From assembly GCF_018388445.1 (NCBI RefSeq), contig NZ_CP074405.1, forward strand, positions 3,844,001 through 3,908,000: a DNA stretch of 64,000 nt, read 5' to 3'. Shown piece after piece: positions 45,822 through 49,484 of this stretch; position 1 is the stretch's first letter, and every line of letters starts with the position of its first letter. A program made the position numbers and the translations under genes. This DNA comes from Cellulomonas wangleii (lineage in GTDB: Bacteria > Actinomycetota > Actinomycetes > Actinomycetales > Cellulomonadaceae). The notes under the pieces were generated by a model, which worked only from the letters and a program-made list of their open reading frames with translations, did not search any database and had not been told where the DNA came from.

Positions 45822-45854
45822 GGCCCCGCCGTCCGGGGGGAGGACGACGGGGCC
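45822..45854 (+). terminator. Imperfect GC-rich hairpin after the flippase-like gene
   Basis: GGCCCCGCCGTCC and GGACGACGGGGCC pair with one bulge around a G-rich loop, 12 bases after the stop codon. There is no T-run. It may also act on the small ORF arriving from the other strand. Confidence 0.5.
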
Positions 45855-45885: not shown

Positions 45886-46023
45886 TCAGGCCGCCAGCGC
45901 GTCGCGCTGAGCGGGGACGCTCACCGTGGCCTCCAGGCGCGCGGCGATGGCCGCCCACCGGGCGACGGGCAGGACCTGGGGGCGAACCTCGTGCGGCTCT
46001 GCGGCGGAGTTGCGCTGGTCCAT
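45886..46023 (-). CDS. 45-residue protein downstream of a c-di-GMP riboswitch
   Basis: Small ORF of 45 codons beginning MDQRNSAAEPHEV and ending AQRDALAA. The middle (VLPVARWAAIAARLEATV) should form one amphipathic helix. No signal peptide or known domain is seen. It has a good ribosome site (GAAGGG, 8 bases before the ATG), normal codon bias and a riboswitch ending 13 bases upstream, so it is very probably translated. Nothing else on this strand lies close enough to be the riboswitch target, since the next minus-strand gene downstream starts at 43060. Function is unknown. Confidence 0.72.
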   Translation of the reverse strand: MDQRNSAAEPHEVRPQVLPVARWAAIAARLEATVSVPAQRDALAA

Positions 46024-46036
46024 GACGGAACCCTTC

Positions 46037-46121
46037 GTTCGGTAGCCCGGCTGACCTCGTGGGTCCCGTGGCTTTGCGTCCCCTCCTTGCAGAGGGTTTG
46101 CCGTTTCGCTGACAAGTCCGA
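46037..46121 (-). promoter_or_regulatory. Cyclic di-GMP-I (GEMM) riboswitch
   Basis: Read on the minus strand, the aptamer contains the GEMM hallmarks in order: ACGGCAAACC, a CCUCU-GCAA-GGAGG hairpin closed by a GNRA tetraloop, GGGACGCAAAGCC, a GACC-CACGA-GGUC hairpin, and the tetraloop-receptor side AGCCGGGCUACCGA. The outer P1 stem can form from UCGG and CCGA. The spacing and invariant bases agree with the known c-di-GMP-I class (Vc2-like). TCTAAT just upstream is a possible -10. The 3' part of P1 (CGAAC) could instead pair with GUUC after the GAAGGG ribosome site, offering translational control. Confidence 0.9.
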
Positions 46122-46286
46122 CATTAGACGGCTCTCACGTGCAGCGGTAGTGGTTCGAGTCACTCGTCCTGGACAGGAGCCCAATTCACCCGCTCGGCGG
46201 AGCATCGCGCGCCCCGCGGCGGGCGTGTCGGCGCGACGCGGCGCTGACCTGCGCCCGTCCGGGTGATGCGGGCACCCCGGCAGCAC

Positions 46287-46322
46287 GACGCCCCCGGGAC
46301 CGACGTCGGTCCCGGGGGCGTC
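46287..46322. terminator. 36-bp perfect palindrome after csbD
   Basis: GACGCCCCCGGGACCGAC and its exact complement run without a spacer, giving an 18-bp-arm hairpin. It lies 38 bases beyond the csbD stop on the minus strand and separates csbD from the riboswitch promoter. There is no T-run. Confidence 0.75.
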
Positions 46323-46359
46323 GAAAGGGTGCGGAGCACCCGCTCACGCTGGCGAAAGA

Positions 46360-46560: not shown

Positions 46561-47190
46561 TTAGGGCCGGTCCGGCGCTCCCGCATCCGCAGGGCCCTCG
46601 CCGGCGGGTCCACCGCCGGCGGTCCCCTCGTCGCGCAGCCGCGGCTCCGTGCGGCGGGCGGGCACCACGCCGGCCTTGTCCGCGTAGAACGCGCGCACCC
46701 GGTCCATGTCCGCGCGGACGTCGCCGGTGAGCGTGAGCGTCGGGCCCAGGCCGGCCGTCATGGTCGTGCGGTCCACGTACCCGAGCGTGACCGGCAGGTC
46801 CGTCGCACGCGCGATCCGGTAGAAGCCCGACTTCCACCCGGACCCGGACCGGGAGCCCTCCGGCGTCACCACGAGGTAGAAGTGCTCGCCGGCACCCATG
46901 CGCGCGACCAGGTCGTCCACCAGACCGGCGGGGTCGCGCCGGTCGACCGGGATGCCACCGAGCCCGCGCATCAGCGGGCCGGCAGGCCCCCGGAACAGCG
47001 TGTGCTTGCCGAGCCACCGGAACGGCAGCCCCGCCTCCCACGCGATCGCGAGCATCAGGACGAAGTCCCAGTTGGACGTGTGCGGGGCGCCCAGGATGAT
47101 GCCGGACCCGTCCTGCGGCACGCGCTCGGTGCGCAGCGTCCAGCGGCTCACCCGCCAGTAGGCGCGGGCGACGGCCCGACGGGCGCTCAC
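46561..47190 (-). CDS. Lysophospholipid/glycerol acyltransferase (PlsC-like)
   Basis: Acyltransferase of 209 residues. The catalytic HX4D motif is in GAPHTSNWDFVLML (residues about 38-45), and the substrate motif is VTPEGSRSGSGWKSGFYRIA, EG-S-R in place of the usual EGTR. The short form lacks membrane segments and is likely a peripheral enzyme of phospholipid synthesis. The GTG at 47190 overlaps the phytochrome-phosphatase stop by four bases, so the two genes are co-translated. The functional link between the two is unclear. Confidence 0.87.
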   Translation of the reverse strand: MSARRAVARAYWRVSRWTLRTERVPQDGSGIILGAPHTSNWDFVLMLAIAWEAGLPFRWLGKHTLFRGPAGPLMRGLGGIPVDRRDPAGLVDDLVARMGAGEHFYLVVTPEGSRSGSGWKSGFYRIARATDLPVTLGYVDRTTMTAGLGPTLTLTGDVRADMDRVRAFYADKAGVVPARRTEPRLRDEGTAGGGPAGEGPADAGAPDRP

Positions 47191-49484
47191 GGCCGGGCCC
47201 CCGGCGGCAGGTCGGCGTCCCGGCACAGCAGCAGCAGTGTCATGTCGTCCTTGGAGTCAGGGTCGGAGCACACGGCCACGACCTCGTCGATGTCGACCGG
47301 GACCGTCGGGTCGGGGCGGTCGAAGCGGCGGATCAGCCGGTCGATGCCGTCGGCCAGGGCGGTCGACCGCGAGTCGACCAGACCGTCGCTGTACAGGACC
47401 AGCCCACCACCCGGCTCGATGTGCAGACGCTGCACGGGCGGCTCCCCGGAGCCCACACCGATGGGCCGGTCCACCCGCAGCGGCAGCAGCGCCGCGTCCC
47501 CGTCGGCGCTCAGGACCAGCGGCCGCGGGTGCCCGGCGGCACCCACCTGCGCCTCCCCCGTTGCCGGGTCGACCACGACGACCACGACCGTCGCCATGTC
47601 GTCCGGCATGGTGCGACGCGCCAGCTCGTCGAGGTCGACGAGCGCCTCGCGGATCTCCGCCCCCCGCATGACGTAGGCCCGCAGGGCGTTGCGCAGCTGG
47701 CCCATCGCGGCGGCCGCGCCCAGCCCGTGGCCTGCCACGTCACCGACGACGACGACGAAGCGGCCGTCCGGCAGCTCCAGCGCGTCGTACCAGTCGCCGC
47801 CGACGCGCCCGCCGGCCGCCGGGACGTAGCGTGCCTGCAGGCTCCAGCCGGGCAGCTCGGGCAGCCGTCGCGGCAGCAGGGAGAGCTGGACGGCGTGCGC
47901 CGCCGCCATCTGCCACCGGTTGCGCGTGATGATCACCTCGAGCAGCCCGCTGCGCAGGTCCGCCACCGCCCGCACGTGCTCCGGCGCCCACGGCTCGCTG
48001 CGGCCGCGCACCACCTCGCGCCACTGGTCGAAGGACTTGCGCGGGCTCAGCCGCACCTCGTCACCCTCGCGGTGCGCGATCGCCTTGTTGTGCGGGTCGC
48101 CGCCCCAGTAGATGTCACGCACCTGCTCGTACCGCAGCCAGGCGATCACCTGGTCGTCGGGCAGCCGGACCGCCAGCACGCCGGCGACGTCCGGCAGCGC
48201 ACCCGCCAGCTCCGGGTCGGTGACGCCGAGCTGCGTGCGCACCGTCACCGGCTCCGGCTGCGCGAGCACCCACGCGCGCAGGGCCGCCACGTCCACGGGG
48301 ACGTCACCGGCCGTGACGGTGGTCCCGTCCGCGACGACGACCAGGCCGTGGGCGGGCACGGCCGCCAGCAGGCCGTGGTCACCGGCCAGGGCCTCCGCCA
48401 GCCCGTGGTCCGGGTCGCGCGCGAGGCCCAGGACGCGGGTCATCGCCCCCTGGGCGGCGAGCTCCCGCTCCAGCTCGCGGTCCTCCGCGCGGGCGACCAA
48501 CCGCAACGACAGGGCCGACCCGAGGAACTCCGCCGCCGCCCGCACGCCGAACGGCACCACGTGCGGACCGGCGTAGTGGTGGCAGGCGACCAGGCCCCAC
48601 AGGCGGCCCTCGCGCAGCAGCGAGATCGACATCGAGGCCCGCACGCCCATGTTCGTCAGGTACTCGACGTGCACGGGCGAGACGCTGCGCAGCACCGCGT
48701 GCGTCAGGTCCAGCGGCTCGCCCGACGCGGGGTCCCACGCGGGCACGATCGGCGCCGGTCGGTACCCGACGTCGGCGATGAGCCGGATCCAGTTGGTCTC
48801 GTACAGCGCGCGGGCCTGCTGTGGGATGTCGGACGCCGGGTAGTGCAGGCCGAGGAACGCGTTGAGGTCCGCCCGGCGCGCCTCGGCGACGACCTCACCG
48901 TTGTGGTCCTCGTCGAACCGGTACACCATCACCCGGTCGAACCCGGTCAGCGCGCGGACCTCCTGCGCGGCGACGTCGTACAGCTCCTCCAGGGTGCCGG
49001 CACCGTGGAGCTTCTCGAGAGCGGCGCGCACGGCCTGGTACGTGTTGGGGAACGAGAAGGGACGCGGCCCGGTGGCCGTCTCCAGCTCGACCACGAGCAG
49101 CGTGCGCCCACCGATGGCGATGCGGTGCAGGATCGCGTCGGCCGTCACCAGGCCGTGCGGTCCGGCCACGTCGACGGACACCGGGTTGCGCGCCCGCAGG
49201 TCGCCGAACGTGCGCACGTGCACCCGCACCGCCTGCTCGGCGGCCACGCCCAGCACGTCGCGCAGCGGCGCACCGACGACCTCGTCGACCGAGCGCCCCG
49301 TGAGGTCCGCGACGTTGGCGGACACGTGCCGGACCACCAGGTCCGGCTCCGAGACCGCGAGCAGCACCCCGTGCGGCTGCACCGAGCCGGGGATCCGGAT
49401 CGGCTCCTCGGCGCAGGCGTCGAGGTCCGCGAGTGCCTCCCCCGCGGACGGCAGAGGTCCTGGCCCAGTGCCCTGGTCGGTCAT
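47187..49484 (-). CDS. Bacteriophytochrome with SpoIIE-type PP2C phosphatase output
   Basis: Photoreceptor of 765 residues. The N-terminal PAS domain (about 25-130) has C24 in LDACAEEPIRIPGSVQPHG, the biliverdin-binding cysteine position of bacteriophytochromes. The GAF domain (150-315) carries D219-I-P221 in YPASDIPQQARALYETNWIRL and H272 in SPVHVEYLTNMGVRASMSISL. The PHY domain has the tongue WGGDPHNKAIAHREGDEVRLSP. Instead of a histidine kinase, the output is a SpoIIE/RsbU-like phosphatase (about 545-755: GGRVGGDWYDALELPDGR, VVVGDVAGHGLGAAAAMG, SDGLVDSR). It should dephosphorylate an anti-anti-sigma factor in response to red/far-red light. No heme oxygenase gene is nearby to make the chromophore. 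Confidence 0.93.
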   Translation of the reverse strand: MTDQGTGPGPLPSAGEALADLDACAEEPIRIPGSVQPHGVLLAVSEPDLVVRHVSANVADLTGRSVDEVVGAPLRDVLGVAAEQAVRVHVRTFGDLRARNPVSVDVAGPHGLVTADAILHRIAIGGRTLLVVELETATGPRPFSFPNTYQAVRAALEKLHGAGTLEELYDVAAQEVRALTGFDRVMVYRFDEDHNGEVVAEARRADLNAFLGLHYPASDIPQQARALYETNWIRLIADVGYRPAPIVPAWDPASGEPLDLTHAVLRSVSPVHVEYLTNMGVRASMSISLLREGRLWGLVACHHYAGPHVVPFGVRAAAEFLGSALSLRLVARAEDRELERELAAQGAMTRVLGLARDPDHGLAEALAGDHGLLAAVPAHGLVVVADGTTVTAGDVPVDVAALRAWVLAQPEPVTVRTQLGVTDPELAGALPDVAGVLAVRLPDDQVIAWLRYEQVRDIYWGGDPHNKAIAHREGDEVRLSPRKSFDQWREVVRGRSEPWAPEHVRAVADLRSGLLEVIITRNRWQMAAAHAVQLSLLPRRLPELPGWSLQARYVPAAGGRVGGDWYDALELPDGRFVVVVGDVAGHGLGAAAAMGQLRNALRAYVMRGAEIREALVDLDELARRTMPDDMATVVVVVVDPATGEAQVGAAGHPRPLVLSADGDAALLPLRVDRPIGVGSGEPPVQRLHIEPGGGLVLYSDGLVDSRSTALADGIDRLIRRFDRPDPTVPVDIDEVVAVCSDPDSKDDMTLLLLCRDADLPPGARP

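Follow-up and report, generated by a model that had tools for sequence, protein, structure and literature searches.

In Cellulomonas wangleii, c-di-GMP probably has a two-gene output: an aptamer-led mRNA for a 45-residue mini-protein, and a BldC-type regulator of which the mini-protein would be a partner or modulator. In the reading we rather favour, a c-di-GMP-I riboswitch would make up almost all of the 5' leader of an mRNA that probably carries one gene and the transcription of which would begin at about the 5' end of the aptamer, and c-di-GMP would act at the initiation of translation of the mini-protein. Within the genus, the mini-protein has a counterpart in a bldC paralogue that is led by an aptamer of its own. 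Inside the cell, the mini-protein, which has one short stretch resembling a helix and a PxQ tail like that of BldC, would be a partner of this BldC-type regulator or would modulate it.

A canonical c-di-GMP-I aptamer

The aptamer of the c-di-GMP-I (GEMM) riboswitch lies on the minus strand at positions 46110-46037 of the window, i.e. the whole stretch of 64,000 nucleotides (64 kb) that was analysed. The preliminary description had recognised a complete GEMM aptamer on this strand, and covariance-model matches bear this out: the aptamer scores 67.7 bits with RF01051, above the gathering value of 35, and its pocket letters are intact. It also scores 59.5 bits with RF03167, the c-di-GMP-I-GGC family (E 1.6e-11 in the 64-kb window), barely over the gathering value of 59. 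Of 112 distinct aptamers, that of the window counted with the rest, 109 have a canonical fourth pair in stem P2 (shuffled mean 68.1, maximum 81), with GC, GT, TA, AT and TG all seen; only P2 was counted, and its remaining five pairs vary little and hence hold little information.

The letter 3' of ACGC, which we take to be position 47 of Vc2, is A in all 120 aptamers examined, including that of the window, whereas the consensus of RF03167 has G, presumably the letter from which that family has its name. In the Vc2 numbering the pocket nucleotides are G20, A47 and C92, and the window letters aligned to them are G, A and C. The window RNA thus has the covariance model, stems and pocket letters of the c-di-GMP-I riboswitch (GEMM-I, RF01051), but differs in that the start codon lies only 13 nt past the aptamer and in that the target is an uncharacterised mini-protein. 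Because the letter after ACGC is A and not G, the RNA is, by that letter, better filed under canonical c-di-GMP-I than as a specificity variant, and, judged from its sequence, it is itself an ordinary member of its class. G20 is reported to be a selectivity factor (PMC9262584).

The mini-protein and the aptamer across genomes

We have surveyed a sample of 150 genomes of the family (G000-G149), in which aptamers were scored with stricter filters, by which weak ones may be missed. RF03167 matches were obtained in 51 of the 150 genomes and in 7 of the 25 genera, and in none of 14 controls. A profile of the mini-protein, derived from loci found through their aptamers and searched against the whole of the same 150 genomes, gave 60 matches. 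All 45 strong matches (E 1.1e-6 or better) have a c-di-GMP-I aptamer directly upstream, 44 of these aptamers coming from the search tables and one from reading its locus; the weak matches in the 150 genomes (E 4e-4 to 0.01) were associated with an aptamer in 0 of 15 cases. The strong set spans 42 genomes, which are 42 of the 51 aptamer-positive genomes and none of the 99 aptamer-negative ones. Since whole genomes were searched, relatives of similar score that stand apart from an aptamer would have come to light; as judged by the profile, the clear members of the family in the genomes searched all sit behind such aptamers.

The ORF had been expected to be kept behind GEMM matches in relatives, which is what the 45 strong matches display without exception, and loss of the ORF with the aptamer kept was not seen within the genus, all 17 members of which in the 150-genome sample carry both. 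The earlier proposal that the small protein is an output of c-di-GMP is therefore well supported by comparison, through this linkage and through the selection described below. In an order-wide sample, RF01051 matches were found in 41 of 396 genomes; at 13 loci outside the family the first likely ORF was read, and neither a bldC gene nor a mini-protein of this family was found there, the ORFs encoding a response regulator and proteins that look secreted, or being short ORFs of other kinds.

Other genes behind the aptamers and the bldC pair

Among the matches listed in the 150-genome aptamer search, 131 loci were considered. A script classed 120 aptamers in 119 of them, with classes and start codons assigned by rule and uncurated, and the 12 loci missed by its text pattern were read separately (7 long, 2 BldC, 1 mini-protein, 1 tiny, 1 unassigned). 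The 132 aptamers read, among the matches listed, precede 46 mini-proteins (one doubtful), 46 BldC-type genes, 26 longer ORFs and 13 tiny ORFs, with 1 aptamer left unassigned. A mini-protein under such control, previously thought a rare case, thus follows 46 of 132 aptamers in this lineage.

Of the 26 longer ORFs, nine were scanned: DUF4214 was matched in four of them, PKD repeats in one and EAL in one, and the remaining three gave no family. An aptamer stands 5' of an EAL-domain gene (Pfam) at L068 and of a gene that is EAL-like by eye at L091, and at L126 it stands 5' of an ORF without a family match, in the downstream stretch of which there is a GGDEF match; the targets at these three loci hint at feedback on c-di-GMP turnover. 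The 13 tiny ORFs include one probable bldC in a shifted frame (L055, scripted as tiny) and one long gene ended by its contig (L065). Ten others, at L009, L023, L027, L031, L095, L106, L109, L111, L121 and L122, have 19-43 codons with an aptamer upstream and are without the PxQ tail, and at most of these loci GGGTGA occurs 117-126 nt 5' of GCAAAC.

Two aptamers were found in the window's own genome, one before the mini-protein and the other (L001, G000:C1:2391619-2391693) 5' of a 74-residue BldC-family regulator; a second bldC paralogue (G000:C1:3214086-3214277) has no aptamer among those listed for the genome. Each of the 17 members of the genus in the 150-genome sample has both a bldC aptamer and a mini-protein aptamer, although the bldC of G144 could be read only after a frame shift. 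Exactly two aptamers, one for each gene, were counted in 14 of the 17. At L097 (G079), two aptamer-bldC units stand in direct tandem, 436 nt apart.

A c-di-GMP signal is plausible in this genome because it has 6 GGDEF matches; GGDEF matches occur in all 51 aptamer-positive genomes versus 48 of the 99 others. An obligatory flagellar role was considered and rejected, since flagellin was matched in 12 of the 17 genus members and the mini-protein in 17. The five without a flagellin match, including the genomes of L041 and L046, still keep the mini-protein, which is therefore not tied to motility.

Layout of the leader and upstream elements

As previously described, 13 bases with a ribosome site lie between the aptamer and the 45-codon ORF: the spacer (46036-46024) is exactly of this length, the ATG is at 46023, the ORF ends at 45886, and the Shine-Dalgarno sequence GAAGG (46032..46036, minus strand) abuts the 3' end of the aptamer. 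With start codons chosen by script, the distance from the first letter of GCAAAC to the start codon is 76-85 nt in 115 of the 120 leaders. On the 5' side, a -10-like TAATGT (46121..46126, minus strand) corresponds to a peak in the position of TAnnnT 24-26 nt 5' of GCAAAC across the 120 leaders, with 31 occurrences at -25, 11 at -24 and 6 at -26. Since TAnnnT stands at this distance in many leaders, transcription probably starts near 46113, at about the 5' end of the aptamer. By eye, the aligned upstream sequences may also be read to contain a -35-like CTACCG (46145..46150, minus strand; CTTCCG in orthologues), and a strict sigma-70 scan and a terminator scan gave no match. A G+C-rich hairpin without a U run 3' of the ORF (45822..45854, minus strand), likewise noticed by eye, is a possible terminator; it was missed by the terminator scan and by a repeat search with 9-base seeds.

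Two further elements were derived from motif counts over the leaders. The TGTCC box (46171..46175, minus strand) occurs in 41 of 44 bldC leaders (11.9 expected) and in 20 of 45 mini-protein leaders (11.6 expected; mononucleotide shuffles in both cases). The upstream element CGGGTGAA (46185..46192, minus strand) is a probable transcription-factor site. Within 150 nt upstream and on either strand, GGGTGA is present in 43 of 45 mini-protein leaders, 30 of 44 bldC leaders, 11 of 12 tiny-ORF leaders and 10 of 19 long-ORF leaders, the numbers expected by mononucleotide shuffle being 3.4, 3.2, 1.0 and 1.3, respectively. It is near-fixed in 35 of the 45 mini-protein leaders, where it reads forward 90-94 nt 5' of GCAAAC, and in the bldC leaders the CGGGTGAA element is mostly reversed. 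Taken by itself, the CGGGTGAA 8-mer is no rarity, the window having 2 copies against an expected 1.38. The pattern CGGGTGAAWT has 7 sites in the window's own genome, including that of the window, and its reversed-pattern control has 0. A site CGGGTGAAAT with the upstream element precedes a polysaccharide-type sugar-transferase gene (L163), and another CGGGTGAAWT site lies 1.8 kb beyond it, before an ORF that is secreted-looking by eye; no regulon is claimed for the seven sites, the gene context at the remaining ones having been only glanced at. CGGGTGAA probably marks a shared, putative transcription factor, which would add a second layer of control. The string TTCACCCG was not found in the accessible parts of the literature searched on BldM/WhiI.

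In the neighbourhood, a perfect 19-bp inverted repeat without a loop (46286-46323) lies 3' of a csbD-like gene and is probably its terminator, and two genes upstream of csbD a phytochrome-type sensor is fused to a SpoIIE phosphatase domain (47187-49484).

Level and sense of the control

Control is most likely exerted at translation initiation, because the start codon follows the aptamer after 13 nt, with no room for a terminator in between. The preliminary description had likewise proposed translational control, through a GAAC/GUUC pairing around the ribosome site; the tetramers are present (GAAC 46040-46037, GUUC 46031-46028), but the pairing finds no comparative support in 119 folded leaders. 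These leaders, one of the 120 being left out, were folded both freely and with the aptamer forced. The mean access of the ribosome site was 0.54 free and 0.49 forced in the mini-protein leaders, and 0.54 and 0.54 in the bldC leaders; on forcing, 4 of the 45 mini-protein leaders shifted up by more than 0.15 and 7 shifted down. The folding difference of the bldC leaders lies within that of their leader swaps, and no consistent change in ribosome-site access was seen across the 119 leaders.

We lean slightly towards c-di-GMP turning translation on, since surface proteins with DUF4214 or PKD, as well as an EAL phosphodiesterase, are encoded behind aptamers of the same layout. The opposite sense, in which the aptamer with c-di-GMP bound would abut the ribosome site and block the 30S subunit, is a serious if tentative possibility. 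It gains its weight from the mini-protein leaders, the mean access of which falls slightly when the aptamer is forced, by a difference (-0.046) below those of all six within-class leader swaps (mean -0.004, range -0.020 to 0.011); the direct contact of the aptamer end with GAAGG and the narrow range of the GCAAAC-to-start distance point the same way. However, the ligand-free fold of the window's own sequence hides the site, with an access of 0.26 versus 0.50 when the aptamer is forced, through pairing of ACGGGACCC (46069-46061) with GGGUUCCGU (46025..46033, minus strand), and the adhesin-like proteins and the EAL enzyme behind aptamers of the same layout would suit an on-switch better. As a general mechanism the ACGGGACCC/GGGUUCCGU helix was rejected, being confined to the fold of this one sequence and absent from the folds of L041 and L046.

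Likeness of the mini-protein to BldC

Two features are common to the mini-proteins and the BldC family (NF033787; Streptomyces BldC, PDB 6ama and 6amk), a C-terminal tail of the form [VIL]PxQ and a stretch with RWA, and in this lineage the same riboswitch class stands upstream of both; unlike BldC, the window's mini-protein has no complete winged helix-turn-helix (wHTH) and no NF033787 or Pfam match. The motif [VIL]PxQ was picked after viewing both families and falls outside the part that NF033787 matches. Among distinct sequences, 40 of 43 mini-proteins and 36 of 42 BldC proteins have it within their final 16 residues; it occurs in 0 of 12 tiny ORFs and in 0 of the 162 further gene-like ORFs, with at least 90 residues, from the same loci and the window. 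Alignment to 6ama places it in Streptomyces BldC as well. A second type of mini-protein, with 62-66 residues and without the tryptophan motif, is present at L063, L075, L083 and L101, with the tails LGFVPAQVR, LSFVPTQER or LSFVPAQIR, which are very like some BldC tails.

Over the whole length, profile comparison by hhalign gave a weak likeness between the two families (probability 6%, E 0.0059), aligning RWA and the tail; the real score exceeded those of 299 of 300 column shuffles, the exception being one anomalous score of 130.8. With the tail alone, the probability is 35% (E 4e-4), and the remainder without the tail is not significant (E 0.066). Since the profile likeness is weak and the remainder gives this value, the mini-protein is not filed under BldC; no NF033787 or MerR-type wHTH match was obtained with the four mini-proteins scanned.

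It is conceivable, though in our view doubtful, that the mini-protein is a c-di-GMP output independent of BldC, for instance a small factor of the membrane surface or of the polysaccharide machinery, whose PxQ likeness would be convergent or due to chance. Such a protein would fit the insignificant likeness of the tail-less part, the lack of any Pfam or NCBIfam family at E<=1 for the window ORF and three further mini-proteins, the failure to find a complete helix-turn-helix in the mini-protein, and the CGGGTGAAAT site before the sugar-transferase gene; it would leave the constant pairing with a riboswitch-led bldC in the genus, as well as the likeness of the tail (E 4e-4 when compared alone; 0 of 162 other ORFs), unaccounted for. 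A search of solved structures with the mini-protein gave only noise (E 4.3).

If the mini-protein is a partner or modulator of a BldC-type regulator, as we prefer, one particular form of this would be a stripped-down BldC mimic, which has kept the tryptophan-bearing helix and the PxQ tail, lacks the DNA-binding wing, and caps or titrates the head-to-tail oligomers of BldC or a partner of BldC. We consider this form unlikely. The tryptophan of that helix would correspond to Trp31 of Streptomyces BldC, which is reported to pack in the head-to-tail interface (PMC5859096), and this makes a capping mini-protein thinkable. Were the mimic real, twin riboswitches would place under c-di-GMP a regulator that oligomerises and, besides it, the antagonist of that regulator.

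Selection on the ORF

The mini-protein ORF (45886..46023, minus strand), with its RWAAIA stretch and VPAQR tail, was examined through alignments, a family profile and dN/dS. Three pairs among the window ORF and its orthologues at L041 and L046 have dN/dS values of 0.13, 0.21 and 0.14, and looser groups have values of 0.5-1.1 (up to 1.06). Differences at codon positions 1, 2 and 3 number 98, 60 and 191, summed over 16 overlapping within-group pairs. The family alignment (A1), which holds 39 of the 43 distinct mini-protein rows, the four without the tryptophan motif being excluded, shows an N terminus that varies but often reads MDQxG, a stretch similar to RLxxWAAxA, and PxQR in the tail; the 30-residue product at L116 was left out of the mini-protein alignment and the tail counts and kept in the 45-leader counts of motifs, folding and spacing. 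Searched against a large protein set, the profile of these 39 members found 99 proteins at E <=0.01, a number that includes the window's own protein and some query members. The ORF had been called of unannotated type, and this stands in so far as no function is named; relatives do exist, however, the named matches, from Cellulomonas and Actinotalea, being labelled as hypothetical or uncharacterized proteins.

By these comparisons the ORF is a real gene under selection. That it is instead a leader peptide or by-product, the work being done by the RNA (aptamer and short transcript), for example as a c-di-GMP sponge, is very improbable: the leader is more alike than the ORF between the window and L041 and L046 (161 and 160 of 178 positions, and 115 of 135 both times), but the dN/dS of 0.13-0.21, the residues conserved across genera and the strong family profile all speak for the protein.

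Implications

In Streptomyces, c-di-GMP acts via BldD, and BldC activates cdgE, a predicted diguanylate cyclase gene (PMC6428758). In the literature searched, which covered few subscription papers and was in part accessible, no description was found of a riboswitch-bound mini-protein family or of a bldC riboswitch; as judged from it, the new part is the mini-protein family together with the paired bldC switch. For an uncharacterised family of mini-proteins, c-di-GMP now stands as a clear input and a BldC-type regulator as the likely partner. If c-di-GMP acts on bldC directly, through a riboswitch, in an actinobacterial lineage other than Streptomyces, the network known from Streptomyces would there be wired in a new way.
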